Assembly: GCA_030539055.1 (NCBI GenBank)
Contig: JAUNSV010000003.1
Location: 31,346 to 95,345, forward strand
DNA: 64,000 nt
Source: Eubacteriales bacterium
GTDB lineage: Bacteria; Bacillota; Clostridia; Lachnospirales; Lachnospiraceae
Direction: 5' to 3'
Positions 50,118 to 62,840 of the stretch are shown piece by piece. A program made the position numbers and the translations under genes. The notes beneath the pieces are model-generated. The model saw nothing but the letters and a program-made list of their open reading frames with translations, was not told where the DNA came from and searched no databases. The first letter of the stretch is position 1. The number at the start of each line of letters is the position of its first letter.

Positions 50118-50149
50118 GAATACAACTTATAAAAAAAATTTATGGATTA

Positions 50150-50275
50150 AAACTCCGAGTTTATTTTAGCTTATGTATTCTTTATAAAATACATTGCTAT
50201 ATGGACCAATGAGCACATTTGGAAACAGTTGTGCTTGCCATTTTTGCGAAGGAGATTATTGCAAGGCTAGGAAAG
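50150..50275 (+). promoter_or_regulatory. Moco/Tuco-type riboswitch aptamer
   Basis: The leader contains the conserved CTCCG (50153-50157) and the 3' core TTGCGAAGGAGA and GCAAGGCTAGGAAA characteristic of the molybdenum/tungsten cofactor RNA motif. Stems: ATGTATT/AATACAT (50173-50194), AGCACA/TGTGCT (50212-50235), GCC/GGC (50237-50239 with 50265-50267) and TTGC/GCAA (50244-50247 with 50261-50264). Related RNAs control cofactor synthesis, transport and cofactor-using enzymes. Downstream genes here are exactly of those kinds. Whether it prefers Mo or W cofactor cannot be read with certainty. Confidence 0.9.
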
Positions 50276-50318: not shown

Positions 50319-50795
50319 ATGAAAGTTTTACAAGTAAAACCCGATAAGTGTATCGGTTGCAGAACCTGTGAAATTGTATGCGCATTTAGTCATAATGGCA
50401 AGAGCAATCCAAGATTTGCAAATTTAAAAGTATTACCATTTGAAAAAGCTGGAATACAAGTACCTGTTGTTTGCCAGCAATGTGAAAATGCTTCTTGTAT
50501 GAATGTATGCCCTGTTCATGCTATTTTTCGTGATGAGAATAGTGCTTACATAATTAATCAAGATAAGTGTATTGGATGTAAATTATGTATGAATGCCTGT
50601 CCTCTTGGAAACATTGGTATCAATCATGAAAAGTTTCAAATGCATAAGTGTGACCTTTGCAAGGGAGACCCTATGTGTGTAAAGTTCTGTCCATCGGGAG
50701 CACTTACTTTTGTTGATCCAGATGAAGATCAAGATAGAAGAAGAGTTGTAGCTCGTGCATTTAAGGAAGTATTTGGCGAAGAGGAGGATAAATAA
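50319..50795 (+). CDS. Polyferredoxin subunit of the aldehyde oxidoreductase (four [4Fe-4S])
   Basis: 158 residues with 16 Cys in four groups: C11/14/17/21, C52/55/60/64, C84/87/90/94 and C111/114/120/124, enough for four [4Fe-4S] clusters as in HycB/AorA/WorS-type electron-transfer subunits. It would carry electrons from the tungsten site to the NuoEF-like module. GGGAGG precedes ATG 50319; the aldehyde oxidoreductase gene starts one base after its stop codon. First structural gene behind the riboswitch. Confidence 0.9.
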   Translation: MKVLQVKPDKCIGCRTCEIVCAFSHNGKSNPRFANLKVLPFEKAGIQVPVVCQQCENASCMNVCPVHAIFRDENSAYIINQDKCIGCKLCMNACPLGNIGINHEKFQMHKCDLCKGDPMCVKFCPSGALTFVDPDEDQDRRRVVARAFKEVFGEEEDK

Positions 50796-50796
50796 G

Positions 50797-52599
50797 ATGA
50801 GTACATCATTTATGAATTGTGTCATAAGAGTAGATCTTAAGACAGGAAAAATTAGCAAGGAACCTCTCAATATGCAGTTCGCTAAAGACTATATTGGAGC
50901 AAGAGGTCTTGGAACAAAATATCATATAACTGAGTGTAAAGCAAATATAGATCCACTTGGTCCAGATAATAAACTTATATTTATGACAGGTCCACTTACT
51001 GGAACATTTTCACCATGCTCTGGGCGTTATGAAGTTGTAGCTAAAGCTCCACTTACAGGAACTATTGGAGCAGCAAACTCAGGTGGACACTTTGGTCCAG
51101 AACTAAAATATGCAGGATACGATGGTATTATTTTTGAAAATCAAGCAAGTAAGCCAGTATATCTTCTTATTGAAGATGATAAAGTCGAGCTTCGTGATGC
51201 TAGTGATTTATGGGGTAAGACAGTTTTTGAAACTACAGATATATTAAATGAAAGACATGGTGAAACTGCAAGAGTTGCTTGTATTGGGCCTACTGGTGAA
51301 AGACTTGTTCTTTACTCTGGTGTTATGAATGATAAGCATAGAGCAGCTGGTCGTGGTGGTCTTGGTGCTGTTATGGGTTCTAAAAAACTTAAAGCAGTAG
51401 TTGTAAAAGGAACTGGTTCTGTTGAACATGCTCTCCCAAAAGAGTTTATGGATGCTTGCATAAATGCTCGTCAAGTTCTTAAAGCTCATCCTGTAACAGG
51501 AGCAGGACTTGGTGCATATGGAACACAAATTTTAGTAAATATTATTAATGGTTCAGATGCAATGCCAGTAAATAACTGGAAAGATGGTTCACACTTTGAT
51601 AAGGGTGAGGATATTTCTGGAGAGGCACTTGTTGATAAATACTTAGTTCGTAACAAAGGATGCTTCGGATGTTGTATTGGTTGCGGGCGTGTAACAAAAA
51701 TTAAAGAAGGTCCATTCAAAAGTTTTGGTGAGGGACCAGAGTATGAGGCTGGTTGGTCATTTGGAGCAGATTGTGGAGTTTCAGACCTTGCAGCAGTATG
51801 TAAAGCAAACTTTATTTGTAATGAATACGGATTTGACCCTATTACACTTGGTTCTACAATAGCTTGTGCTATGGAACTTTTTGAGATGGGTGCAATTAAA
51901 GAATCAGAAATAGGATTTCCACTTAGATTTGGTGATGCAGTAGCTATGGTTAAAGCAGCTGAGATTACTGGTAAGGGTGAGGGATTTGGAAAAATTTTAG
52001 GTGAGGGATCATATAGACTTGCTACAAAATATGGACATCCAGAACTTTCAATGAGTGTTAAAAAACAAGAAATGCCTGCTTATGATGGTCGTTGTATGCA
52101 AGGTATTGGTCTTGAGTATGCTACTTCAAACCGTGGTGGATGCCATGTTCGTGGTTATATGACAAGCCCAGAAATTTTAGGTATTCCAATAAAAGTTGAT
52201 CCACTTACAACCGAGGGTAAGGCTCCACTTCTTAAGACATTCCAAGACCTCACAGCAGCATTTGATTCAGCTGGTATTTGTTTATTTACTTCATTTGGAA
52301 TTGGTCTTAAAGAACTTTGTGAATTATATCGTGCAGCAGTTGGTTCTAATGAATCCGATGAGGAAATTTTGCTTAAGGGTGAGAGAACTTGGAACTTAGA
52401 GAAACTTTATAACATAGAAGCTGGAGTAGAGAAAGACACATTGCCACCAAGACTTCTTAGAGAAGCTCTTCCATCTGGGCAAGCAAAAGGAAATGTAAAT
52501 CAACTCGATGTAATGCTTAAAGAGTATTATGAAGTTCGTGGTTGGGATAAAGAGGGTATTCCAGGCGATAAAAAGAAAAAGGAATTAAATATAGGATAA
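50797..52599 (+). CDS. aor: Tungsten aldehyde:ferredoxin oxidoreductase, catalytic subunit
   Basis: Oxidises aldehydes to acids (or reduces acids in reverse) at a tungsten bis-pterin site. Family landmarks: AGRGGLGAVMGSKKLKA near residue 190; cluster ligands C289-x2-C292-x3-C296 in GCFGCCIGCG; and the fourth ligand C495 in DSAGIC (usual motif DxxGLC, here Ile for Leu). These positions are nearly those of archaeal AOR. 600 residues, full length. The start is ATG 50797, behind GAGGAGG in the end of the ferredoxin gene; an upstream in-frame ATG at 50755 has no site. Codon use shifts to CTT, CGT and GGT compared with core genes, pointing to high expression or transfer. The aldehyde substrate is unknown. 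Confidence 0.95.
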   Translation: MSTSFMNCVIRVDLKTGKISKEPLNMQFAKDYIGARGLGTKYHITECKANIDPLGPDNKLIFMTGPLTGTFSPCSGRYEVVAKAPLTGTIGAANSGGHFGPELKYAGYDGIIFENQASKPVYLLIEDDKVELRDASDLWGKTVFETTDILNERHGETARVACIGPTGERLVLYSGVMNDKHRAAGRGGLGAVMGSKKLKAVVVKGTGSVEHALPKEFMDACINARQVLKAHPVTGAGLGAYGTQILVNIINGSDAMPVNNWKDGSHFDKGEDISGEALVDKYLVRNKGCFGCCIGCGRVTKIKEGPFKSFGEGPEYEAGWSFGADCGVSDLAAVCKANFICNEYGFDPITLGSTIACAMELFEMGAIKESEIGFPLRFGDAVAMVKAAEITGKGEGFGKILGEGSYRLATKYGHPELSMSVKKQEMPAYDGRCMQGIGLEYATSNRGGCHVRGYMTSPEILGIPIKVDPLTTEGKAPLLKTFQDLTAAFDSAGICLFTSFGIGLKELCELYRAAVGSNESDEEILLKGERTWNLEKLYNIEAGVEKDTLPPRLLREALPSGQAKGNVNQLDVMLKEYYEVRGWDKEGIPGDKKKKELNIG

Positions 52600-52605
52600 A
52601 ATATT

Positions 52606-52881
52606 ATGCAGGTTAAGTACTTCGCATATATTAGAGACTTTACCAAATGTAAAGAATCTATAGAAGAATACAAACCAACCATTAAGGAGTTGCTTCATTC
52701 TTTGGCCGACAAATACGGTGATAAATTTAAGAATGAAGCACTTACTCCTGATGGTAATGATTTAGGTGAGAGAATTATTATTTTAATTAATGGTAGACAT
52801 GTTGCTCACCTAGGTGGCATTAATGCGAAGATAAATGAATCTGACATTGTGCAGGTATTTCCTGTAGTTGCAGGAGGCTAA
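52606..52881 (+). CDS. moaD: MoaD/ThiS-family sulfur carrier
   Basis: 91-residue ubiquitin-like protein ending VFPVVAGG, the C-terminal Gly-Gly that is adenylated and thiocarboxylated. MoaD supplies the dithiolene sulfurs of molybdopterin. Position inside the AOR operon and a MoeB-like activating enzyme 9 kb downstream in the same unit indicate a dedicated pterin-sulfuration route for the tungsten enzyme. No moaE (the partner subunit) is in the window. Its end holds the AGGAGG site of the next gene. Confidence 0.88.
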   Translation: MQVKYFAYIRDFTKCKESIEEYKPTIKELLHSLADKYGDKFKNEALTPDGNDLGERIIILINGRHVAHLGGINAKINESDIVQVFPVVAGG

Positions 52882-52882
52882 G

Positions 52883-53374
52883 ATGGAAGAAGTAAAGCTT
52901 AGTAATAATGTTGATGAAAAAGAAATTAAATTAATACTTGATTCATATAAAAGTGAAAGACGCTATGCTCTTTTTATGCTTCAAGATATGCAAAATAAAT
53001 TTCAATTTGTTCCACGGAATGGTATGGAAATGCTTTCAAAATATCTTGATTGTCCAATATCTGAATTGTATGCAATGGCAACTTTTTATAAAGCATTAAG
53101 TCTTAAACCAAAAGGGAAACATATAATTAAATGTTGTGATGGTACAGCGTGCCATATTAGAGGAAGTCTAAATTTAGTAGGAGAGTTAAAAAGAAAACTT
53201 GGTGTTGAACCAGGAGAGACTACTAAAGATGGACTTTTTAGTTTTGAAACAGTAAATTGTATGGGTTCTTGTGCACTTGCACCTGTTGTAGTTATTGATG
53301 AAAAATATTATGGAAAAGTAACTATGGAACAACTCCCAAAAATTCTGGATGAGTACAGAGAGGGGGGAAAATAA
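52883..53374 (+). CDS. nuoE: NuoE/HydC-like [2Fe-2S] subunit
   Basis: 163 residues; thioredoxin-like ferredoxin with C85-x4-C90 and C126-x3-C130, the NuoE pattern. N-terminal helical part YALFMLQDMQNKFQFVP is also typical. It transfers electrons next to the FMN of the NuoF-like partner. ATG 52883 has AGGAGG directly upstream; an in-frame ATG at 52868 would destroy that spacing. Stop and next start are adjacent (TAAATG). Confidence 0.92.
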   Translation: MEEVKLSNNVDEKEIKLILDSYKSERRYALFMLQDMQNKFQFVPRNGMEMLSKYLDCPISELYAMATFYKALSLKPKGKHIIKCCDGTACHIRGSLNLVGELKRKLGVEPGETTKDGLFSFETVNCMGSCALAPVVVIDEKYYGKVTMEQLPKILDEYREGGK

Positions 53375-55180
53375 ATGAAGACTATTCGTATTTGTTGTGG
53401 TACTGGCTGTCTTGCAAATGGTGCTACTCTTGTCGCTTGCGAGTTTGAGAAACAACTTAGTGGTAGTAAAGATGCAAAACTTGAGTGTGTCATTAAAAAA
53501 ACTGGCTGTAATGGTTTTTGTGAAAATGGACCACTTGTAACAATAGTTCCAGATGATATCGCATACTATCATGTTAAACCTAAAGATGTTATTGAAATTA
53601 TTGATAAAACTATTAAAAATGGTGAACTAGTTGAAAGACTTTTATATAAAGATAACGAGGGAAAACCAGTTAAGACAAAAGAGGAAAATCCTTTTTACAA
53701 ACCACAAAAGAAAATAGCACTTAGAAATATAGGTATTATTGACCTAGAGAGTATTGATGATTATTTAGAGAATGGTGGGTATGAAGCATTAAAGAAAACT
53801 CTTAATATGACTCAAGATGATATCATTAAAGAGGTTGAAGAATCTGGACTAAGAGGTCGTGGTGGTGCAGGATTTCCTACTGGTAGAAAATGGAGAACAG
53901 CACAAGGATATGATGTATTTCCAAAATATGTTGTATGTAATGGAGATGAGGGTGACCCAGGTGCATTTATGGATAGGTCAATTCTTGAGGGAGATCCACA
54001 TTCAGTTCTTGAGGGACTTGCAATTTGTGCAATAGCTATAGGTGCAGAAAAAGGATATTTATATATAAGAGATGAGTACAATCTTGCACTTAAGCATATA
54101 AAAAAAGCAATAGTTGATGCAGAAAAAAAAGGATATCTTGGTGATAATATTTTAGGGTCTGGAAAGAAATTAAAACTAGAAGTTGTTCGTGGTGGTGGTG
54201 CTTTCGTATGTGGGGAGTCTACTGCCCTTATGAAATCAATAGAGGGAAAAGTAGGTGAGCCAAGAGCTAAATATATTAGATCAGTTCAAAAGGGACTTTG
54301 GGATCATCCAACAGTACTAAATAATGTAGAAACTCTTGCAAACATTCCTTATATTTTTTTACATAGTGCAAAAGAATTTGCTTCTATTGGTACAAAAGCT
54401 AGTGCTGGAACTAAGGTATTTGCACTTGTTGGAAAAGTTAAAAGAACAGGACTTGTTGAAGTTCCTATGGGAACTACACTCCGAGAACTTATTTTTGATA
54501 TTGGTGGTGGTGTCATAGGAGATAGAGAATTTAAAGCAGTGCAAACTGGTGGGCCATCTGGTGGTTGTATTGGAAAAGAATTACTTGATTCACCACTTGA
54601 CTTTGAAGAGTTAAAATTAAAAGGTTCAATGATGGGATCTGGTGGTGTTATTGTTATGGATGACACAAGTTGTATGGTAGAAGTAGCAAGATATTATGTA
54701 GAATTCTTGTGTGGTGAATCTTGTGGAAAATGTACACCATGTCGTGAGGGTCTTAGAAGAATGCTAGAAATTCTTACAGATATTTGCAATGGAAAAGGTA
54801 CAATGGAAGACCTTGATATACTTATGCTCTTAGCTGAAACAATGGGTGATGCTTCACTTTGTGCTCTTGGTAAATCAGCAATGAATCCAGTTGTATCAAC
54901 TCTTAAATTATTTAGAGATGAGTATGAAGCTCATATTAAAGAGCATTATTGTCCTGCAGGAGTTTGCGAAAAGCTTACTGAATTTTATATTGATAAAGAT
55001 ACTTGTAAGGGGTGTTCTGCTTGTAGCAAAGTTTGCCCAGTTGGAGCTATCACAGGAGAAATAAAGAAAGTTTACACTATTGATAGGAAGAAGTGTATTG
55101 CTTGCGGATCTTGTAGAAATACTTGTAAATTTGATTCAGTTCATACAAGAGGAAAGGAGGGTTGTGATGCTAAAAATTAA
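53375..55180 (+). CDS. nuoF: NuoF/HydB-like NADH-binding flavoprotein subunit
   Basis: 601 residues. N-terminal [2Fe-2S] thioredoxin-like part (CCGTGCLANG and GCNGFCENG); FMN/NADH core with GRGGAGFPTGRKW near residue 165 and GDEGDPGAFMDRSILEGDPH near 189; SLBB region; [4Fe-4S] motif ESCGKCTPCREG near 450; and a C-terminal two-cluster ferredoxin (CKGCSACSKVCP and CIACGSCRNTC). This extended form is the one found in electron-bifurcating hydrogenases (HydB) and formate dehydrogenases. Here it would link the tungsten enzyme to NAD(H) and perhaps ferredoxin. Overlaps the next gene by 14 bp. Confidence 0.94.
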   Translation: MKTIRICCGTGCLANGATLVACEFEKQLSGSKDAKLECVIKKTGCNGFCENGPLVTIVPDDIAYYHVKPKDVIEIIDKTIKNGELVERLLYKDNEGKPVKTKEENPFYKPQKKIALRNIGIIDLESIDDYLENGGYEALKKTLNMTQDDIIKEVEESGLRGRGGAGFPTGRKWRTAQGYDVFPKYVVCNGDEGDPGAFMDRSILEGDPHSVLEGLAICAIAIGAEKGYLYIRDEYNLALKHIKKAIVDAEKKGYLGDNILGSGKKLKLEVVRGGGAFVCGESTALMKSIEGKVGEPRAKYIRSVQKGLWDHPTVLNNVETLANIPYIFLHSAKEFASIGTKASAGTKVFALVGKVKRTGLVEVPMGTTLRELIFDIGGGVIGDREFKAVQTGGPSGGCIGKELLDSPLDFEELKLKGSMMGSGGVIVMDDTSCMVEVARYYVEFLCGESCGKCTPCREGLRRMLEILTDICNGKGTMEDLDILMLLAETMGDASLCALGKSAMNPVVSTLKLFRDEYEAHIKEHYCPAGVCEKLTEFYIDKDTCKGCSACSKVCPVGAITGEIKKVYTIDRKKCIACGSCRNTCKFDSVHTRGKEGCDAKN

Positions 55181-55943
55181 GATTGACGAAAAAGATTATG
55201 AGTGTGAAAAAGGCACAATACTTCTTGATTTTTGTAGAAAAAAAGGAATAAATATTCCTACACTTTGTGAGCATGGAGCAATAGCGGAAGTAGCTAGTTG
55301 TAGACTTTGTATTTGCGAAGTAATAATAAAAGGAAGATCTCAAGTAGTTGTTTCTTGTGTATATCCTATAGAACAAGAATGTGAAATACTAACTCATAGC
55401 GAGAAGATAGATAGAGAAAGAGGAGTGATTCTTATGCTTCTTAAACTCCGTGCACCAGAATCAAAAGAAATACAAGAACTATGTGAGAAATATAAAGCAC
55501 CTGAATATAAGAGATTTAAAACTCTTGATGGTGGAAAATGTATTATGTGTGGAAAGTGCGCACTTGTTTGTAAAGAACTTGGGTCATCGGCTATTTCAAC
55601 AATTAATAGAGGAATATCAAAAGAAATTTCTACTCCTTATGGAGAACCAAATATTACTTGCATTGGTTGTTTAAGTTGTGCACATGTTTGTCCTACTCAA
55701 GCAATTAATTTTGAAAGTGATGATAAGCATAGAAAAATTTGGGGCAAGGAATTTAAACTTGTATATTGTAAAGATTGTAAAAAACCAATTGGTACTGTTG
55801 AAGAGATAGAATATGCAAAAAAGAAGACTCCAGTTAAAGATGAAGATGCATACAACTATTGTGATGAATGCAGAAGATTACATATTGCTAAAGTAATGGC
55901 TGCAACATATGGTGAAGTTGAAACTGAAATGAGTAGTAAATAA
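55167..55943 (+). CDS. NuoG/HydA N-terminal-like iron-sulfur subunit
   Basis: 258 residues. [2Fe-2S] plant-type site C34/C45/C48/C64; two [4Fe-4S] sites C125/128/131/135 and C165/168/171/175; then a C-terminal zinc- or cluster-like quartet C201/C204/C232/C235. It resembles the N-terminus of HydA/NuoG, but has no hydrogenase H-cluster or molybdopterin domain, so it is a wiring subunit only. Start ATG 55167 follows AGGAGG; an open frame from 55080 overlaps nuoF in a different frame and is not real. Completes the NuoEFG-like module. Confidence 0.88.
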   Translation: MLKIKIDEKDYECEKGTILLDFCRKKGINIPTLCEHGAIAEVASCRLCICEVIIKGRSQVVVSCVYPIEQECEILTHSEKIDRERGVILMLLKLRAPESKEIQELCEKYKAPEYKRFKTLDGGKCIMCGKCALVCKELGSSAISTINRGISKEISTPYGEPNITCIGCLSCAHVCPTQAINFESDDKHRKIWGKEFKLVYCKDCKKPIGTVEEIEYAKKKTPVKDEDAYNYCDECRRLHIAKVMAATYGEVETEMSSK

Positions 55944-55985: not shown

Positions 55986-57032
55986 ATGTTTAAGAAATTT
56001 TTATCTGTAGCAATAGCTACAACACTTGCTTTAAGCCTTTTTGCGTGTTCTACACCAAAAGCTGAAGCACAAGTAGCAACAAGTGAGGCACAAGTAGCAA
56101 TAACAGAAGCACAAATAGCAACAATTGAATCAGAAACAGCAAAGCAAATCGTTGAAGTAAATCTTGAAATCTTAAAAGAACAAGATGATTCTATGATTAA
56201 CACTTACTCAATACTTGCTGTAAATGACAAGGCACCTTTTGTAGATGCAAATGGAACTGCAATTACTGATGTAAAACTTTATACTGTAGGTGCTAATGCT
56301 TTAATTAATTGGTTTTTATCAGAAGGGCTTGATCTTTCAGGACAATATGGATTCAATGAATATGGAGAATATCTTTTTTATATAAAAGATGATGCTCCAA
56401 AATCAAAAGGAGAGATTGTAAATGCTACTGATGATACAAGAGTGATTAAACTTTCTACTACTACATCTGTAAACGATTCAGGGCTTCTTGGAAATATTCT
56501 TCCAAAGTTTGAAGAAAAGTATGGATACAAAGTAGAAGTATATTCAGCAGGAACAGGAAAGGCAATTGCAAATGCAAAAGCAGGAAATGCAGATGTGATT
56601 TTAGTTCACGCAAAAGCACAAGAAGACAAATTTGTAGAAGATAAGTTTGCTCGTATTGTTGATGGATTTGATAAGGAGAGACTTTCTTTTATGTATAACT
56701 TTTTTGTATTATGTGGACCAAAAGAGGATAAAGCAAATGTAAAAAATTCTGCAACAGTACTTGATGCATTTAAAGCAATTGCAGATGGAAAATATTTATT
56801 TGTTTCAAGAGGCGATGGATCAGGAACTCATACAAAGGAGCTTGCTCTTTGGCCAAAAGATTTAGGAATTACTGCCGAAGCTACAACTTTTGAAGCATAT
56901 AAGGATTGGTATATTTCTTCTAATGCTGGGATGGGAGCGTGTTTATTACAAGCATCAGAAAAGGGAGCATATATTTTATCAGACAAAGCTACATTCTTAA
57001 CATTCAAAGCTAATGGCGGAAAAATAAAATAG
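55986..57032 (+). CDS. tupA: Tungstate-binding lipoprotein TupA, circularly permuted
   Basis: Extracellular lipoprotein (signal ending LFAC, Cys 21) capturing tungstate for TupBC. The family core is present: IKLSTTTSVNDSGLLGNILP (residues 155-174), VLCGPKEDKAN, and the oxyanion-site block SRGDGSGTHTKE (274-285). The usual C-terminal segment is not at the end: the protein stops at ILSDKATFLTFKANGGKIK. The missing piece appears at residues 55-135 (LEILKEQDDSMINTYSILAV, NALINWFLSE and YGEYLFYI), between the signal and the canonical start. A three-fold heptad linker (27-47) joins it to the anchor. AAAGGAG site. First of tupABC. Confidence 0.92.
   Translation: MFKKFLSVAIATTLALSLFACSTPKAEAQVATSEAQVAITEAQIATIESETAKQIVEVNLEILKEQDDSMINTYSILAVNDKAPFVDANGTAITDVKLYTVGANALINWFLSEGLDLSGQYGFNEYGEYLFYIKDDAPKSKGEIVNATDDTRVIKLSTTTSVNDSGLLGNILPKFEEKYGYKVEVYSAGTGKAIANAKAGNADVILVHAKAQEDKFVEDKFARIVDGFDKERLSFMYNFFVLCGPKEDKANVKNSATVLDAFKAIADGKYLFVSRGDGSGTHTKELALWPKDLGITAEATTFEAYKDWYISSNAGMGACLLQASEKGAYILSDKATFLTFKANGGKIK
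56064..56126 (+). repeat. Three 21-bp tandem repeats in tupA
   Basis: Encodes EAQVATS, EAQVAIT, EAQIATI just after the lipid-bearing Cys, a probable flexible or helical spacer between membrane anchor and binding domain. Confidence 0.85.
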
Positions 57033-57048
57033 TTGGTATAATTAAAAT

Positions 57049-57732
57049 ATGCCAATTATTCAAGAAGCTATAAAATTAATATTTACTTTTGATAAGACAC
57101 TTACAGATATACTTATAGTAACACTTAAGATGTCAATATCAAGTTCTGTTATTGCACTCATAATAGGTGTTCCTATTGGTGTTGTTTATGGTTATCATAA
57201 AAATAAAATATGTAAATTTTTAATTATTATTAATCGCACACTTATGGGAATGCCACCCGTAGTGTGCGGTCTTTTTTGCTTTTTACTCTTTTGCGGTGTA
57301 GGACCACTTAGACATATGAAACTTTTATATACTATACCAGGAATGGTTATTGCACAAGTAATTTTGATTACACCAATAGTGATTGGTACTCTAGAACCAT
57401 TTGTAGAAAAAATATATCCAGATGTGAGAGATACTATATATGGATTAAAAATAGCTAGAGTAAAAAAGATATTTTTGTTAATAAATGAAAGCAAGTATGA
57501 GATAATATCAATATATTTAATTGCATTTTCTAGAGCAATAGCAGAAGTAGGAGCAGTTTCAATGGTTGGGGGAGCAATAATATTTAAAACAAATGTTATG
57601 ACAACAGCAATTATGAATTATACAAATATGGGAAATTTTAATATGGCAATGGCACTTGGAATAATTCTTCTTTTGTTTTCATTTGTGGTAAATATAATAG
57701 CTACACTATTACAAATATTAGCAAATAAATAG
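57049..57732 (+). CDS. tupB: Tungstate ABC transporter permease TupB
   Basis: 227 residues with five or six membrane segments. The EAA-type loop near residue 130 (DTIYGLKIARVKKIFLLINE) couples to the ATPase, and AFSRAIAEVGAVSMVGGAI near 165 is characteristic of Mod/Tup/Wtp permeases. It sits between tupA and tupC with 16- and 1-bp gaps. The ribosome site is weak, so translation may depend on tupA. Confidence 0.93.
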   Translation: MPIIQEAIKLIFTFDKTLTDILIVTLKMSISSSVIALIIGVPIGVVYGYHKNKICKFLIIINRTLMGMPPVVCGLFCFLLFCGVGPLRHMKLLYTIPGMVIAQVILITPIVIGTLEPFVEKIYPDVRDTIYGLKIARVKKIFLLINESKYEIISIYLIAFSRAIAEVGAVSMVGGAIIFKTNVMTTAIMNYTNMGNFNMAMALGIILLLFSFVVNIIATLLQILANK

Positions 57733-57733
57733 T

Positions 57734-58369
57734 ATGATTAAAATTGATTGTATAAAAAAATCTTATAATGGAAAAAAAGTTGTTGATGTACATAACATTT
57801 CTTTTGAAGAGAATGTGCATTATGTTTTACTTGGTGCAAATGGTTCAGGAAAAAGCACATTTGCAAGATTATTAGCTGGAATAATAAGAGATGATAATAA
57901 GCATTTAATAAAAATACCAAATAAATTAAAAGTAGATCCTCAAAAAAAATATTTACAAATTGGATATTTACCACAGAAAGCTTATATGTTTGATATGAAT
58001 TTAGTAGGGAATATTAGTATAGCTTATGATGGAAAAAACAAAAATAAATTTGATACAAAAGTAGAAGAATTAATACAAGCATTTAATATAGGATATTTAA
58101 GAAAAGAAAATGCAAAAGGGTACTCTGGTGGAGAGCAACAAAAAGTTGCTCTTGCTAGATTTTTGATGAAAGATTTTGACATTATGATTTTAGATGAGCC
58201 AACAAGTGCAATGGATGATAAATCTACAATTCTTGCAGAAAAAATTATTAAAGAATATATGAAAGAAAGAACAGTATTATTAATTACACATGAAAAAGAG
58301 CAAGCTATAAGGTTTTCTAATAAAAAAATAGTAATGGATAATGGAAAAATAATACAATGGAACTCTTAA
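57734..58369 (+). CDS. tupC: Tungstate ABC transporter ATPase TupC
   Basis: 211 residues. Walker A LLGANGSGKSTFARLL near residue 33, signature YSGGEQQKVALARFL near 131, Walker B IMILDEPTSAMDD near 152 and switch His in LLITHEKEQ. No C-terminal TOBE/Mop domain, unlike many ModC proteins; a separate di-Mop protein is encoded at 37734. Overlaps the first moeA by 13 bp. Confidence 0.93.
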   Translation: MIKIDCIKKSYNGKKVVDVHNISFEENVHYVLLGANGSGKSTFARLLAGIIRDDNKHLIKIPNKLKVDPQKKYLQIGYLPQKAYMFDMNLVGNISIAYDGKNKNKFDTKVEELIQAFNIGYLRKENAKGYSGGEQQKVALARFLMKDFDIMILDEPTSAMDDKSTILAEKIIKEYMKERTVLLITHEKEQAIRFSNKKIVMDNGKIIQWNS

Positions 58370-59586
58370 AAGTAGATAGTTTAGAAGTAGCAAAAGAAAA
58401 ATTATATAATGAGTATAAAAAAGGATTAGGAATAGAAATTGAAGAAGTTTTGGTTTCTGATTCTTTTAATAGAGTAATAGCAAACAATGTTATTTCAAAA
58501 GTAAATGTGCCAGATTTTAATAGATCAACTGTTGATGGATATGCAGTTCTTGCTAAAGATACAAACGGATCAAGTGATACTATCCCTACATTTTTAAAAG
58601 TAGTTGCAGAAAGCAAGATGGGAGAAGAGTGCAAAACAAAAATTGTAAGTGGTGAATGTGTTTATGTGCCAACTGGTGGTATGCTTCCAATTGGTGCAAA
58701 TGCAATGGTAATGCTTGAGCATACAGAAAATTTGACAAATGAAAAAATAGCGATATATGAGGCTACTCCAGAATGGAAAAATGTAGTTCATATTGGTGAT
58801 GATATAAAAGAAGAAGAGACAGTAATAAAAAAAGGGAAAAAAATTTCTGCTGGTGATATGGGATTACTTTCATCAATAGGAGTAGAAAGTATTAATGTAT
58901 ATAAAAAATGGAGAATAACAATTATTTCTACAGGAGATGAACTAGTAAGTAATGAAAAGGATTATAAATTTGGAAAGATTAGGGATGTAAATTCAAACTT
59001 ACTACTTGGCTTATGTATAGAAAATAATTTTGAAATAGTAAATAAATTTTTAATAAAAGATGATGAGAATGATCTAAGGGAAATAATTAATGACTGTAAA
59101 AAAAATAGTGATGTAGTTGTTATATCTGGTGGTAGTTCAAAAGGGAAAAAAGATTTGAGTGCAAAAGTTATTTATGAACTTTCATCAACTGGTGTACTTA
59201 CGCATGGAATTGCAATTAAACCTGGAAAACCTACTATTACTGCTTATGATAAAAAAACAAATACCGTATTAATAGGACTTCCAGGGCATCCTATAGCTGC
59301 TTTTTTACTTTTTAAATTACTTATTGTAGATTTATATGAAAAAATTACTTGTGAAAAAAACAAAAGCTTACAAAAGTATTTAGAACTATGTATTTCTGAA
59401 AATTTACCAGCTTCTCCAGGTAGAACAACATTCCAATTAGTAAGTATAGAGAATGATAAAGCAATACCAATATATGGGAGGTCGGGATTAATTCACACTC
59501 TGTCTATGGCTATGGGATATATAATTATGGAAGAGAATCAAGAAGGAATTAATAAGGGAGAAAGAGTAAAAGTATATTACTTATAA
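58357..59586 (+). CDS. moeA: Molybdopterin molybdenum/tungsten-transferase MoeA (first)
   Basis: Inserts the metal oxyanion into adenylated molybdopterin. 409 residues with all four MoeA domains: NRSTVDGYAV near residue 50, the MogA-like active loop VVISGGSSKGKKDLS near 255, GLPGHPIAAF near 305 and a C-terminal beta domain. Two MoeA-type proteins follow each other here, a pattern linked in other organisms to separate Mo and W insertion. Its final base is shared with the start of the second (TAATG). Confidence 0.93.
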   Translation: MELLKVDSLEVAKEKLYNEYKKGLGIEIEEVLVSDSFNRVIANNVISKVNVPDFNRSTVDGYAVLAKDTNGSSDTIPTFLKVVAESKMGEECKTKIVSGECVYVPTGGMLPIGANAMVMLEHTENLTNEKIAIYEATPEWKNVVHIGDDIKEEETVIKKGKKISAGDMGLLSSIGVESINVYKKWRITIISTGDELVSNEKDYKFGKIRDVNSNLLLGLCIENNFEIVNKFLIKDDENDLREIINDCKKNSDVVVISGGSSKGKKDLSAKVIYELSSTGVLTHGIAIKPGKPTITAYDKKTNTVLIGLPGHPIAAFLLFKLLIVDLYEKITCEKNKSLQKYLELCISENLPASPGRTTFQLVSIENDKAIPIYGRSGLIHTLSMAMGYIIMEENQEGINKGERVKVYYL

Positions 59587-61520
59587 TGAATATGGGAGAG
59601 AGAAATTTATATTTACATACAATTTCTGTAGAGGAAGCATTATCAAAATATTATAATTATTTACAGCAAAATAAAATACAAATTGGTGGTGCAGAATTTG
59701 TAAAAACAGAAGATGCTCTAGGCAGAATTACTTGTGAGGCAGTTTATGCCAAAAGTAATTCTCCGTTATTTAATGCAGCAGCAATGGATGGAATATGTGT
59801 GGAAAGTAAAATAACAAAAGGAGCAAGTGAAGAAAATCCAATTGTGTTAAATTTAGGAAAAGATTTTTTGATAGTTGATACAGGAGATGCAATCAAGTCG
59901 CCTTATGATGCTGTTATTATGGCAGAAGATGTGATTGAAATTGATGATACTCATATAAAAATTGTTGGATCTGTTCCCGAGTGGGAAAATGTAAGACCAG
60001 TTGGCGAAGATATTGTAACTGGAGAAATGATTATTCCAAGCAATCATAAGATTTCGCCAATAGATATTGGCGCTATTCTTGCAAGTGGGAATCTGAATAT
60101 TAGTTGTTATAAAAAAATAAAGGTAGGAATAATACCTACTGGAACAGAAATAATTGACCCAAAAGAAAAACCTATGGAGGGAGATATTATTGATTCAAAT
60201 TCTTATATGATTAAGTCATTAGTAGATAATAGTGGTGGCGTAGGAAAAAGATATGGAATAGTAAAAGATGATTATGAATTAATAAAACAGCAAGTGAAAA
60301 AATCAATTGAAGAAAATGATATTACAATTACGAATGCTGGTTCATCTGCTGGGACAAAAGATTTTACAGTACATATTTTAAGAGAGCTTGGAGAAGTAAT
60401 CGTACATGGTGTTGCAATGAAACCTGGTAAACCTGTAATTCTTGCAATTGTAAAAGGAAAACCAGTAATTGGACTTCCTGGATATCCACTTTCTGCATAT
60501 CTTGCTTATGATATTTTTGTAAAACCGTTAATAGAAAACAAGGTAAATCTTGATAACAAAATTAGTAATCATAATATTATAAAAGCAAAAGTTGCAAAAA
60601 GAATAGTTTCTTCTCTTAAACATAAAGAGTATGTGCGTGCCAAAGTTGGAAAAGTAAATGGGGAATATATAGCTTCACCACTAAATCGTGGGGCTGCATC
60701 GCAAATGAGTATGGTTAGAGCAGATGGATTATTAATTATTCCAAAAAATAGCGAGGGTGTTGAAGCAGGTGAGAAATGTATAATAGAACTCTTGAAAAAT
60801 AAAAACAATTTTGATAATATTATTGTATCTATTGGTTCGCATGATATGCTTATGGATATTGTTGCAGATATTTTAGCATACAAATATAAAAATATTATTC
60901 TTTCATCAACACATGTTGGTTCAATGGGTGGACTAATGGCATTAAAAAGAGGCGAAACAATAATCGCACCAACACATCTTCTTGATGAAAGTACTGGGGA
61001 ATATAATATTAATATAATAAAAGAGTTGTTTAATAGAAATGATAGTATATCATTAATAAAAGGCTTTAATAGAATTCAAGGCATAATGGTTAAAAAAGGT
61101 AATCCATTAGGGATAAAAGGAATCAATGATTTAACAAAATACAGATTTGTAAATAGACAAAGAGGAGCTGGAACACGAGTTCTTCTTGATTATTTGTTAA
61201 AGAAAAATGGGATAGATTTTAATTTGATATCAGGTTACGACAAGGAAGTTACAACACATATGGCTGTTGCTGCCTGTGTTAAAAGTGATGATATTGATTT
61301 TGGACTAGGAGTAAAATCAGCTGCTGATAGTATGAATCTTGATTTTATTGAAGTAGGAGTTGAAGAGTATGATTTTGCAATAAGAACAAAAGATCTTGAA
61401 GATGAAAAAATAAAAGCATTTATAGAGGTTATTTCTGGAAATGAGTTGAGAAAAAAATTAGATAATCTTGGTGGATATAGTTATTCAAATGTTGGTAAAA
61501 TTATTAAAGACATAAATTAG
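59586..61520 (+). CDS. moeA: MoeA fused to a periplasmic-binding-protein-like domain (second)
   Basis: 644 residues. 1-405 is a complete MoeA (NAAAMDGICVES, TITNAGSSAGTKDFT, GLPGYPLSAYLAY). From about 410 a PBP-like/LysR-effector-like domain follows (IIVSIGSHDMLMDIVADIL, HVGSMGGLMALKRGE, FVNRQRGAGTRVLLDYLL), with no signal peptide, so it acts in the cytoplasm. Such fusions occur in clostridia and archaea; the domain might sense or hold oxyanion and select W over Mo, but this is inference. The start ATG 59586 overlaps the first moeA stop; ATG 59592 is an alternative. Confidence 0.93.
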   Translation: MNMGERNLYLHTISVEEALSKYYNYLQQNKIQIGGAEFVKTEDALGRITCEAVYAKSNSPLFNAAAMDGICVESKITKGASEENPIVLNLGKDFLIVDTGDAIKSPYDAVIMAEDVIEIDDTHIKIVGSVPEWENVRPVGEDIVTGEMIIPSNHKISPIDIGAILASGNLNISCYKKIKVGIIPTGTEIIDPKEKPMEGDIIDSNSYMIKSLVDNSGGVGKRYGIVKDDYELIKQQVKKSIEENDITITNAGSSAGTKDFTVHILRELGEVIVHGVAMKPGKPVILAIVKGKPVIGLPGYPLSAYLAYDIFVKPLIENKVNLDNKISNHNIIKAKVAKRIVSSLKHKEYVRAKVGKVNGEYIASPLNRGAASQMSMVRADGLLIIPKNSEGVEAGEKCIIELLKNKNNFDNIIVSIGSHDMLMDIVADILAYKYKNIILSSTHVGSMGGLMALKRGETIIAPTHLLDESTGEYNINIIKELFNRNDSISLIKGFNRIQGIMVKKGNPLGIKGINDLTKYRFVNRQRGAGTRVLLDYLLKKNGIDFNLISGYDKEVTTHMAVAACVKSDDIDFGLGVKSAADSMNLDFIEVGVEEYDFAIRTKDLEDEKIKAFIEVISGNELRKKLDNLGGYSYSNVGKIIKDIN

Positions 61521-61543: not shown

Positions 61544-62050
61544 ATGTATAATGTAGCAATACTAGTTTCATCTGACTCTTCATTCAATGGAACAAGAGAA
61601 GATTTGTCTGGACCAAAAATGAAAGAAATATTAGAAAAAAGCGATGAAGCAAAAGGCATTCTTAAAGTAACAGAGATGAAAATACTTCCAGATGAAAAAA
61701 ATTTATTATGTGAATATATGAAAGAAAAAGCAGATAATGAAGATGTAAATTTGATACTTACAACTGGTGGGACAGGATTTTCAAATAGAGATGTTATGCC
61801 AGAAGCAACAAAAGATGTTATAGAAAAAGAAGTGCTAGGAATTCCAGAAGCGATGAGACTTAAGTCTCTTGAAATTACTACTAGAGCGATGCTTTCAAGA
61901 GGAGTAGCTGGAATAAGAAATAATACATTGATAATAAATATGCCTGGTTCTCCAAAAGCAATTGAAGAAATGTTATCATATGTTTTGCCAGCAGTGATTC
62001 ATGGATTAGATATTTTACTTGGAAATACAAAAAATTGTGCTAGAAAATAA
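61544..62050 (+). CDS. moaB: Molybdopterin adenylyltransferase (MogA/MoaB family)
   Basis: Activates molybdopterin by adenylation before metal insertion by MoeA. 168 residues: VAILVSSDSSFNGTREDLSG at the start, LILTTGGTGFSNRDVMPEAT near residue 69 (MPT-binding GGTG and Asp), and IINMPGSPKAIEEML near 128. AGGAG site, 23 bp after the second moeA. Confidence 0.93.
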   Translation: MYNVAILVSSDSSFNGTREDLSGPKMKEILEKSDEAKGILKVTEMKILPDEKNLLCEYMKEKADNEDVNLILTTGGTGFSNRDVMPEATKDVIEKEVLGIPEAMRLKSLEITTRAMLSRGVAGIRNNTLIINMPGSPKAIEEMLSYVLPAVIHGLDILLGNTKNCARK

Positions 62051-62153: not shown

Positions 62154-62840
62154 ATGTATAAAAATAGATATATAAGAAATAAAATATTGACTAATGAAGA
62201 ACAAAAATTATTAAAAAATAAAACTGTTGTTGTTTTTGGATGTGGTGGACTTGGTGGTTATATTATAGAAGAATTAGCTAGAATAGGAATAGGGAAATTA
62301 ATTGTTTGTGATATTGATATTTTTAAAGAAAGCAATTTGAATAGGCAAATACTATGTAAAGAAAATGATCTTGGAAGAGAAAAAGCACTTGTAGCAAAAG
62401 AAAGAGTGAGTGAAATAAATAGCGAGATAAGTATTGAAAGTACTAGTGAAAATTTGTTTGAAGATGTTAATAAATTAGTATTTATAATTAAAAAAGTTGA
62501 TGTGGTAGTAGACGCACTAGATAGTATAAAAAACAAAAAAGAATTAGAAAAAGTATGTAAAGAATGTAACAAGATTTTGATTCATGGTGCAATCGGTGGT
62601 TGGCAAGGGCAAGCTTCAACAATATTTCCAGGAGATAATACTATAAGTAAATTTTATGGAGATAATATTGATATAGAAGATAAACTTGGGAATCCATCTT
62701 TCACACCAGCAATAGTAGCATCTATAGAAGTAGCTGAAACTATAAAAGTACTAATAGGAAAAACGAATCGACTTTTATCAAAAAAAATGTTAGTTATTGA
62801 TTTGGAAAATAATGATTTTGAAGTGATTGAAATGGATTAA
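62154..62840 (+). CDS. MoeB/ThiF/HesA-like adenylyltransferase (E1 type)
   Basis: 228 residues. Nucleotide-binding FGCGGLGGYIIEELARIG near residue 28, the acidic DIDIFKESNLNRQI near 57, and VDALDSIKNKKEL near 118. It would adenylate the C-terminal Gly-Gly of the MoaD-like carrier at 52606. The paired CxxC zinc site of classical MoeB is not visible. The 103-bp gap before it contains no gene I can support; its ribosome site AAGTGAAG is modest, so a local promoter is possible. Confidence 0.88.
   Translation: MYKNRYIRNKILTNEEQKLLKNKTVVVFGCGGLGGYIIEELARIGIGKLIVCDIDIFKESNLNRQILCKENDLGREKALVAKERVSEINSEISIESTSENLFEDVNKLVFIIKKVDVVVDALDSIKNKKELEKVCKECNKILIHGAIGGWQGQASTIFPGDNTISKFYGDNIDIEDKLGNPSFTPAIVASIEVAETIKVLIGKTNRLLSKKMLVIDLENNDFEVIEMD

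Follow-up and report, generated by a model that had tools for sequence, protein, structure and literature searches.

A TupA-type lipoprotein with a predicted circular permutation in a tungsten-type operon of a Lachnospiraceae genome

Can the binding protein of a tungstate importer begin and end at a different point of its fold and still be a TupA? The question is raised by a gene at positions 55986-57032 of a 64,000-nucleotide stretch (the window) of contig JAUNSV010000003.1, from the assembly GCA_030539055.1 of an Eubacteriales bacterium in the Lachnospiraceae. The original prediction, made from the letters of the DNA, held that the parts of canonical TupA are each present once in its product, in rotated order and behind a lipoprotein-type signal, and two-piece alignments and profiles bear this out. 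On sequence evidence, the product is a TupA-type protein whose C-terminal segment has been moved ahead of the TTTS strand, and we refer to it as cpTupA. Very probably the gene product is the lipoprotein that captures the oxyanion for a TupABC-type tungstate importer, and its chain is circularly permuted.

The open reading frame, its coordinates, and its translation agree with those originally given, and family models recognize the larger part of the protein. Pfam PBP_like_2 covers only residues 150-342, and the NCBIfam TupA model NF041772 places residues 153-343 (the main block) on its positions 16-192 of 266, with about 126 bits. In a phmmer search against the PDB, residues 153-342 align to positions 6-180 of 3lr1 (whole-sequence E-value 1.3e-42), while residues 58-83, which precede them in our protein, align to positions 183-208, and the same swapped two-piece alignment is seen with 3muq, 5my5, and 3kn3. 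Taken singly the second piece is weak (1.5 bits for 3lr1, 6.4 for 3muq, -1.6 for 5my5, and 3.0 for 3kn3), and we therefore tested the moved block (residues 58-135) with profiles. A profile of the permuted N-terminal block scores 11.0-63.3 bits on the 83 canonical proteins tested and matches every one of them downstream of the main block; the best score on 415 shuffled proteins is 6.4 bits. Conversely, a canonical C-terminal profile matches 35/35 permuted proteins, in every case ahead of the main block and with at least 44.9 bits. Aligned to each other with hhalign, the moved block and the canonical C-terminus give a probability of 99.6 and an E-value of 1.5e-24 (for one comparison) over 67 columns with 34% identity. 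The aligned region begins at the LEIL strand and ends at the LF strand, and the permuted proteins have about 11 additional residues mid-block. In the canonical locus L134, a sister of the permuted proteins (see below), the tblastn match of residues 147-343 of the window protein covers 1516-2064 and that of residues 58-136 covers 2065-2271, the two abutting. By sequence, the moved block is homologous to the canonical TupA C-terminus. Neither the window protein nor any of the 80 loci kept from a collection scan (see below) has the canonical order, in which this segment comes last.

The window protein stops directly after the ILSDKATF block, as had been predicted, with only GGKIK behind the main block before the stop codon. 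Of the permuted sequences, 79/83 likewise have 3 to 6 residues beyond the main block; the window protein holds no second C-terminal segment, and in 83/83 permuted sequences 16 residues separate the two profile matches. The moved segment had been put at residues 55-135 ahead of the TTTS strand; its position ahead of that strand stands, and its limits are better given as 58-135. Ahead of it, a reading of the sequence by eye supports the predicted lipoprotein-type signal, with Cys 21 after LFA as the putative lipidation site. The first 22 mature residues have a predicted local distance difference test (pLDDT) score below 50 in an AlphaFold2 (AF2) model that is confident overall, and the linker between signal and moved block is without conservation in a nine-sequence alignment. 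The heptad character ascribed to this linker is the product of a 21-bp tandem repeat and is not conserved; we considered a functional coiled coil and dropped it, since that repeat encodes the linker and relatives have other low-complexity linkers in its place. A loose lipobox pattern occurs in 63/83 permuted proteins (median linker 31 residues) and in 70/87 canonical ones (22 residues), figures too rough to build on.

A natural circular permutation implies one ancestry for the moved and the unmoved parts, and here it has to be weighed against a fusion, in which another TupA-like gene would have supplied a truncated TupA with an N-terminal segment that took the place of its lost C-terminus. We looked at block trees computed with FastTree from 35 permuted and 83 canonical sequences (176 columns for the main block and 69 for the moved block). 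As the original prediction had proposed, homologs of the same order can be placed on a TupA tree: they form one clade with either block (support 0.99 with the moved block), and their nearest canonical relatives are f124 TupAs lying inside the wider canonical group. In the main-block tree L134, L163-L166, L169, and L173 adjoin the permuted clade (0.90), followed by L108-L110, L113, and L118. Both groups recur in the moved-block tree, except that L173 branches off one step further out; the nearest six have a support of 0.73. With fewer canonical sequences, an earlier analysis placed L134 by itself as the sister, whichever block was used. Two further f124 TupAs, L172 and L170, fall outside the sister group. 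With both blocks combined in IQ-TREE (35 permuted and 15 chosen canonical sequences), the permuted clade receives 100/100 and its grouping with the seven f124 canonicals 97/93. A TupB tree (31 sequences from permuted loci and 15 canonical) shows the same pattern as TupA, with 100/100 for the clade and 91/96 for the grouping. The parts are thus present once, rotated, and of one ancestry, which favors true permutation over a fusion of unrelated pieces. Such a fusion, an origin that the authors of the TpMglB-2 study raise for their own protein (PMC4990184) and one that the 0.73 of the moved block leaves some room for, is improbable given that the two blocks analyzed apart agree almost fully on the f124 sister group and share the next group out, and that TupB follows; a fusion with a donor from the same lineage (e.g., a tandem copy) would be indistinguishable from permutation by duplication.

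For the permuted gene we suggest a likely origin. A canonical tupA in an f124-related lineage would have been duplicated in tandem, and the copies fused in frame; the 5' part of the first copy would then have been lost, putting its C-terminal block behind the lipoprotein signal, followed by loss of the 3' end of the second copy, after which the permuted gene may have spread as a transporter unit. The interior of the permuted clade is poorly resolved and taxonomically mixed in the IQ-TREE analysis, which suggests horizontal spread. A single circular permutation seems to have taken place, with subsequent spread through the Clostridia and to Slackia, a coriobacterium, and the permuted TupA and its transporter seem to have travelled jointly among gut bacteria that are only distantly related. 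Clustered canonical copies are also seen: L125 has two adjacent canonical tupA copies, and in G758 a second canonical tupA (L173, G758:C8:34891-35652), its TTTS altered to TTET, lies downstream of tupA-tupB-tupC.

How widely the permuted order occurs was assessed in two ways. A scan of a named-genome collection with two patterns drawn from permuted sequences gave 113 stretches encoding relatives, of which the best 80 were kept; the order is permuted in 80/80, a biased rate, as the patterns favor the permuted form and only the best matches were kept. Some of the loci share one genome. A recount with the two profiles gives 79/79, the 80th locus (L098) ending at a contig edge. By their record titles these loci come mostly from Lachnospiraceae, Oscillospiraceae, Ruminococcaceae, and unplaced Clostridia bins, many from ruminants; beyond these groups are the isolate Slackia equolifaciens DSM 24851 (L081) and one bin each of Slackia, Coriobacteriales, and Solobacterium. 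We also sampled whole genomes evenly and took a full-span match to the window protein as permuted order. Such a match was found in 4/391 genomes of the class, including the source genome; in 44 more the match is confined to the main block, the pattern seen with canonical proteins, and in another 15 to the signal region or other short pieces. The family sample gave 8/398 (one ending at a contig edge), with 13 others by the main block, and the phylum sample 1/299, the source genome itself, among the matches listed, with 158 genomes having some match. For the class of Slackia the count is 2/197, with 62 others by the main block. Among 35 genomes of the order of G758, two are permuted and nine others match by the main block, and four of the 12 other genomes of the genus, those being 75-87% complete, are without a match. 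Over all loci, non-identical main blocks number 84 permuted, 87 canonical (a few first classed by tail length only), and two truncated. Members come mostly from metagenome assemblies, which might raise the suspicion of an assembly or gene-calling artefact, but the same order in 84 non-identical main-block sequences from many assemblies and in the isolate L081, together with its presence at 80/80 scanned loci and the constant 16 residues between the blocks, leaves an artefact next to no credibility.

A second permuted TupA is present in each of two congeneric genomes (L019, on the same contig as L038, and L020), and the surroundings of L038 hold a thymidine kinase and an unrelated ABC (ATP-binding cassette) importer, with no tupB found there. 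In the genome G791 a permuted tupA (L161) is accompanied by L172, a canonical TupA that is divergent and has no TTTS string. At L049:6001-6010 the third codon from the apparent start of tupA is an in-frame stop, and the true start may lie elsewhere.

The permutation can be laid out on the published TupA fold, in which the chain runs through the first part of lobe A (2-76), lobe B (91-200), and the last part of lobe A (201-251), with both ends on lobe A (PMC5517513). By these limits the cut falls within lobe B, ahead of the last strand of that lobe, and leaves both crossovers in place, so that we dropped the idea of a single hinge, with a cut in the hinge and one crossover left. The permuted chain would then run from the signal and linker through the last strand of lobe B and a crossover into a contiguous lobe A (made of the old C-terminal part, a short joint, and the old N-terminal part), and on through the central strand to the rest of lobe B. 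The moved block would fill its old place in the fold, and the lipid anchor would sit on lobe B with both crossovers kept. This mapping supports a shift of both chain ends from lobe A to lobe B, and with it the predicted move of the anchor to a different face.

The ligand residues reported for TupA, namely TTTS, His59, Arg118, Thr124, and Asp170 (PMC5517513), correspond by motif to TTTS 158-161, H208, R275 (in SRGD), T281, and D333 of the window protein, and each position has the same letter in 60/60 permuted members. The literal TTTS string occurs in only 57/87 canonical proteins and is not a strict mark of the family. Genomic context points the same way: in the window the gene lies next to those for TupB and TupC, and among the permuted loci with room for it, tupB is found within 300 nucleotides in 68/71, and an AOR-like match occurs in the available flanks of 33/80. 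The operon (Table 1) is, by its predicted contents, of tungsten type, with a tungsten-type oxidoreductase, cofactor genes, and a riboswitch aptamer lacking P3. In the alignment to RF01055, the molybdenum cofactor/tungsten cofactor (Moco/Tuco) RNA model, the second hairpin, which is P3 by order, is deleted, and P3-lacking RNAs of this kind accompany tungsten cofactor genes (PMC2408646). We infer that the permuted TupA would close on tungstate between its lobes and hand it over to TupBC as TupA does, and the protein apparently serves gut bacteria to catch tungsten for import. It might instead keep the fold and bind another oxyanion (molybdate or another anion), or act in sensing and not as part of a transporter; the long stem branch of the permuted clade, the second permuted copies (L019, L020), and the surroundings of L038 could be taken as hints of this. 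The invariant ligand residues, the adjoining tupB, the tungsten-type operon, and the presence of a separate ModA in the genome make this unlikely.

Several observations weigh against reading cpTupA as a permuted tungstate-binding TupA. The NF041772 cut-off of 400 bits is not reached, so that by the NCBIfam standard the protein is not called TupA. Foldseek finds the tungstate proteins 3lr1 and 5my5 as best matches of the AF2 model, but the 3lr1 match leaves the moved block uncovered; both Foldseek and VIA-align follow chain order. The sister-group support from the moved block alone is modest (0.73), the permuted clade received 0.0 in an earlier moved-block tree (later 0.99), and L169, one of the seven f124 neighbors, is a long branch of unsure place. 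The stem of the permuted clade is long, with 1.12 changes per column in IQ-TREE (1.36 for TupB), and a change of specificity is possible. No segment at both ends, nor both orders in one open reading frame (ORF), was seen among the 173 forms with non-identical main blocks, i.e., no fused intermediate. Most permuted rows are metagenome bins, whose taxonomic labels may be wrong. A ModA gene is present elsewhere in the source genome, and when 11 loci of relatives were scanned for RF01055, 10 were without a match. The one match (L085, at 2505-2622) lies just ahead of the frame of the permuted gene (from about 2645), and the aptamer is not a general mark.

Searches of the open-access literature agree with the original prediction in that no permuted TupA, ModA, or WtpA was found described there. 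The permuted ABC binding protein that was found belongs to another class, type I: the chain of TpMglB-2 (Tp0684) of Treponema pallidum is circularly permuted, yet the protein still binds glucose, with a change of shape when it does so, and its authors suggest a link between permutation and tethering and propose "Type Ic / Cluster Bc" binding proteins (PMC4990184). Like TpMglB-2, in which binding and conformational change are kept, cpTupA is a naturally circularly permuted ABC binding protein with a predicted lipid anchor. Unlike cpTupA, TpMglB-2 has a sugar-binding fold of type I, in which three strands of the N-lobe have moved to the C-terminus, and it has an extra crossover; its moved part is only 13% identical to the canonical counterpart. 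cpTupA does not fall under "Type Ic", as it matches tungstate proteins and has a C-terminal segment moved to the N-terminus, and there is no sign of a shared origin of the two. Canonical TupA (Desulfovibrio alaskensis 5my5 and Geobacter 3lr1) is homologous to cpTupA over both blocks and shares its ligand residues, TupB neighbor, and tungsten context; it differs in that cpTupA has the C-terminal segment at the N-terminus and both chain ends mapping to lobe B instead of lobe A. ModA and WtpA are distant in sequence (9-15% identity in the structural-alignment rows).

The permuted form may matter for surveys of tungsten use in the gut. All of the 60 scanned permuted members match the linear NF041772 at an E-value of 0.001 or below, the best being 8.3e-43, or about 147 bits (an estimate scaled from the 126.6 bits at an E-value of 1.1e-36 for the window protein). 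These scores are far below the 400-bit cut-off, and permuted TupAs are therefore likely unnamed in annotation. Two tungsten surveys counted TupA by COG2998 or by BLASTp, and the string "permut" does not occur in their main text as accessible (PMC13328260, PMC11980592). As a natural permutation of a binding protein, cpTupA would be a rare case in which a canonical sister group, a permease partner, and a single origin are all visible, so that one can test in what order the events took place and what the position of the tether does.

Table 1. Features of the cpTupA gene and its operon in the window
Feature	Position	Strand	Basis
Moco/Tuco riboswitch aptamer RF01055, upstream of operon	50141..50270	+	53.5 bits, gathering score 36
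4Fe-4S ferredoxin-like subunit	50319..50795	+	Pfam Fer4 families
Aldehyde:ferredoxin oxidoreductase family protein (AOR/WOR)	50755..52599	+	PF01314 467 bits, PF02730 280 bits
MoaD/ThiS-like protein	52606..52881	+	PF02597
NuoE-like, NuoF-like, and 2Fe-2S/4Fe-4S electron-transfer subunits, three ORFs	52868..55943	+	PF01257, PF01512, PF10589, PF13510
cpTupA, circularly permuted TupA-type binding lipoprotein (predicted), 348 aa	55986..57032	+	ORF, translation, family models, PDB alignments, profiles
Lipoprotein-type signal and linker, residues 1-57	55986..56156	+	Sequence read by eye
21-bp tandem repeat, 3.2 copies, encoding heptad-like linker	56062..56129	+	
Moved block, residues 58-135: last strand of lobe B, second crossover, C-terminal part of lobe A	56157..56390	+	Homology to canonical TupA C-terminus
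Joint of old C-terminus and old N-terminus, residues 136-152	56391..56441	+	
Main block, residues 153-343, TTTS strand to D(R/K)xT block	56442..57014	+	Canonical TupA match and ligand residues
TupB-type permease	57049..57732	+	NF041773 1.1e-40, 139.9 bits, below 320-bit cut-off; TupB tree
TupC-like ATPase, 211 aa	57734..58369	+	PF00005; NF041774 1.4e-26, model positions 1-210 of 319
Two MoeA genes, second with C-terminal PBP-like domain	58357..61520	+	Domain searches
MoaB/MogA-like protein	61544..62050	+	PF00994
ThiF/MoeB-like protein	62154..62840	+	PF00899

The AOR/WOR gene is the only one found in a search of the source genome, and the gene set at 50319-55943 has the look of a tungsten oxidoreductase that is NAD-linked and perhaps bifurcating. 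Downstream of the permease, other ABC models outscore NF041774 on the TupC-like ATPase, which seems to be without the C-terminal part of ordinary TupC. The second MoeA (59586-61520), which adjoins the plain one, carries the binding-protein-like domain PF12727 (219 bits).
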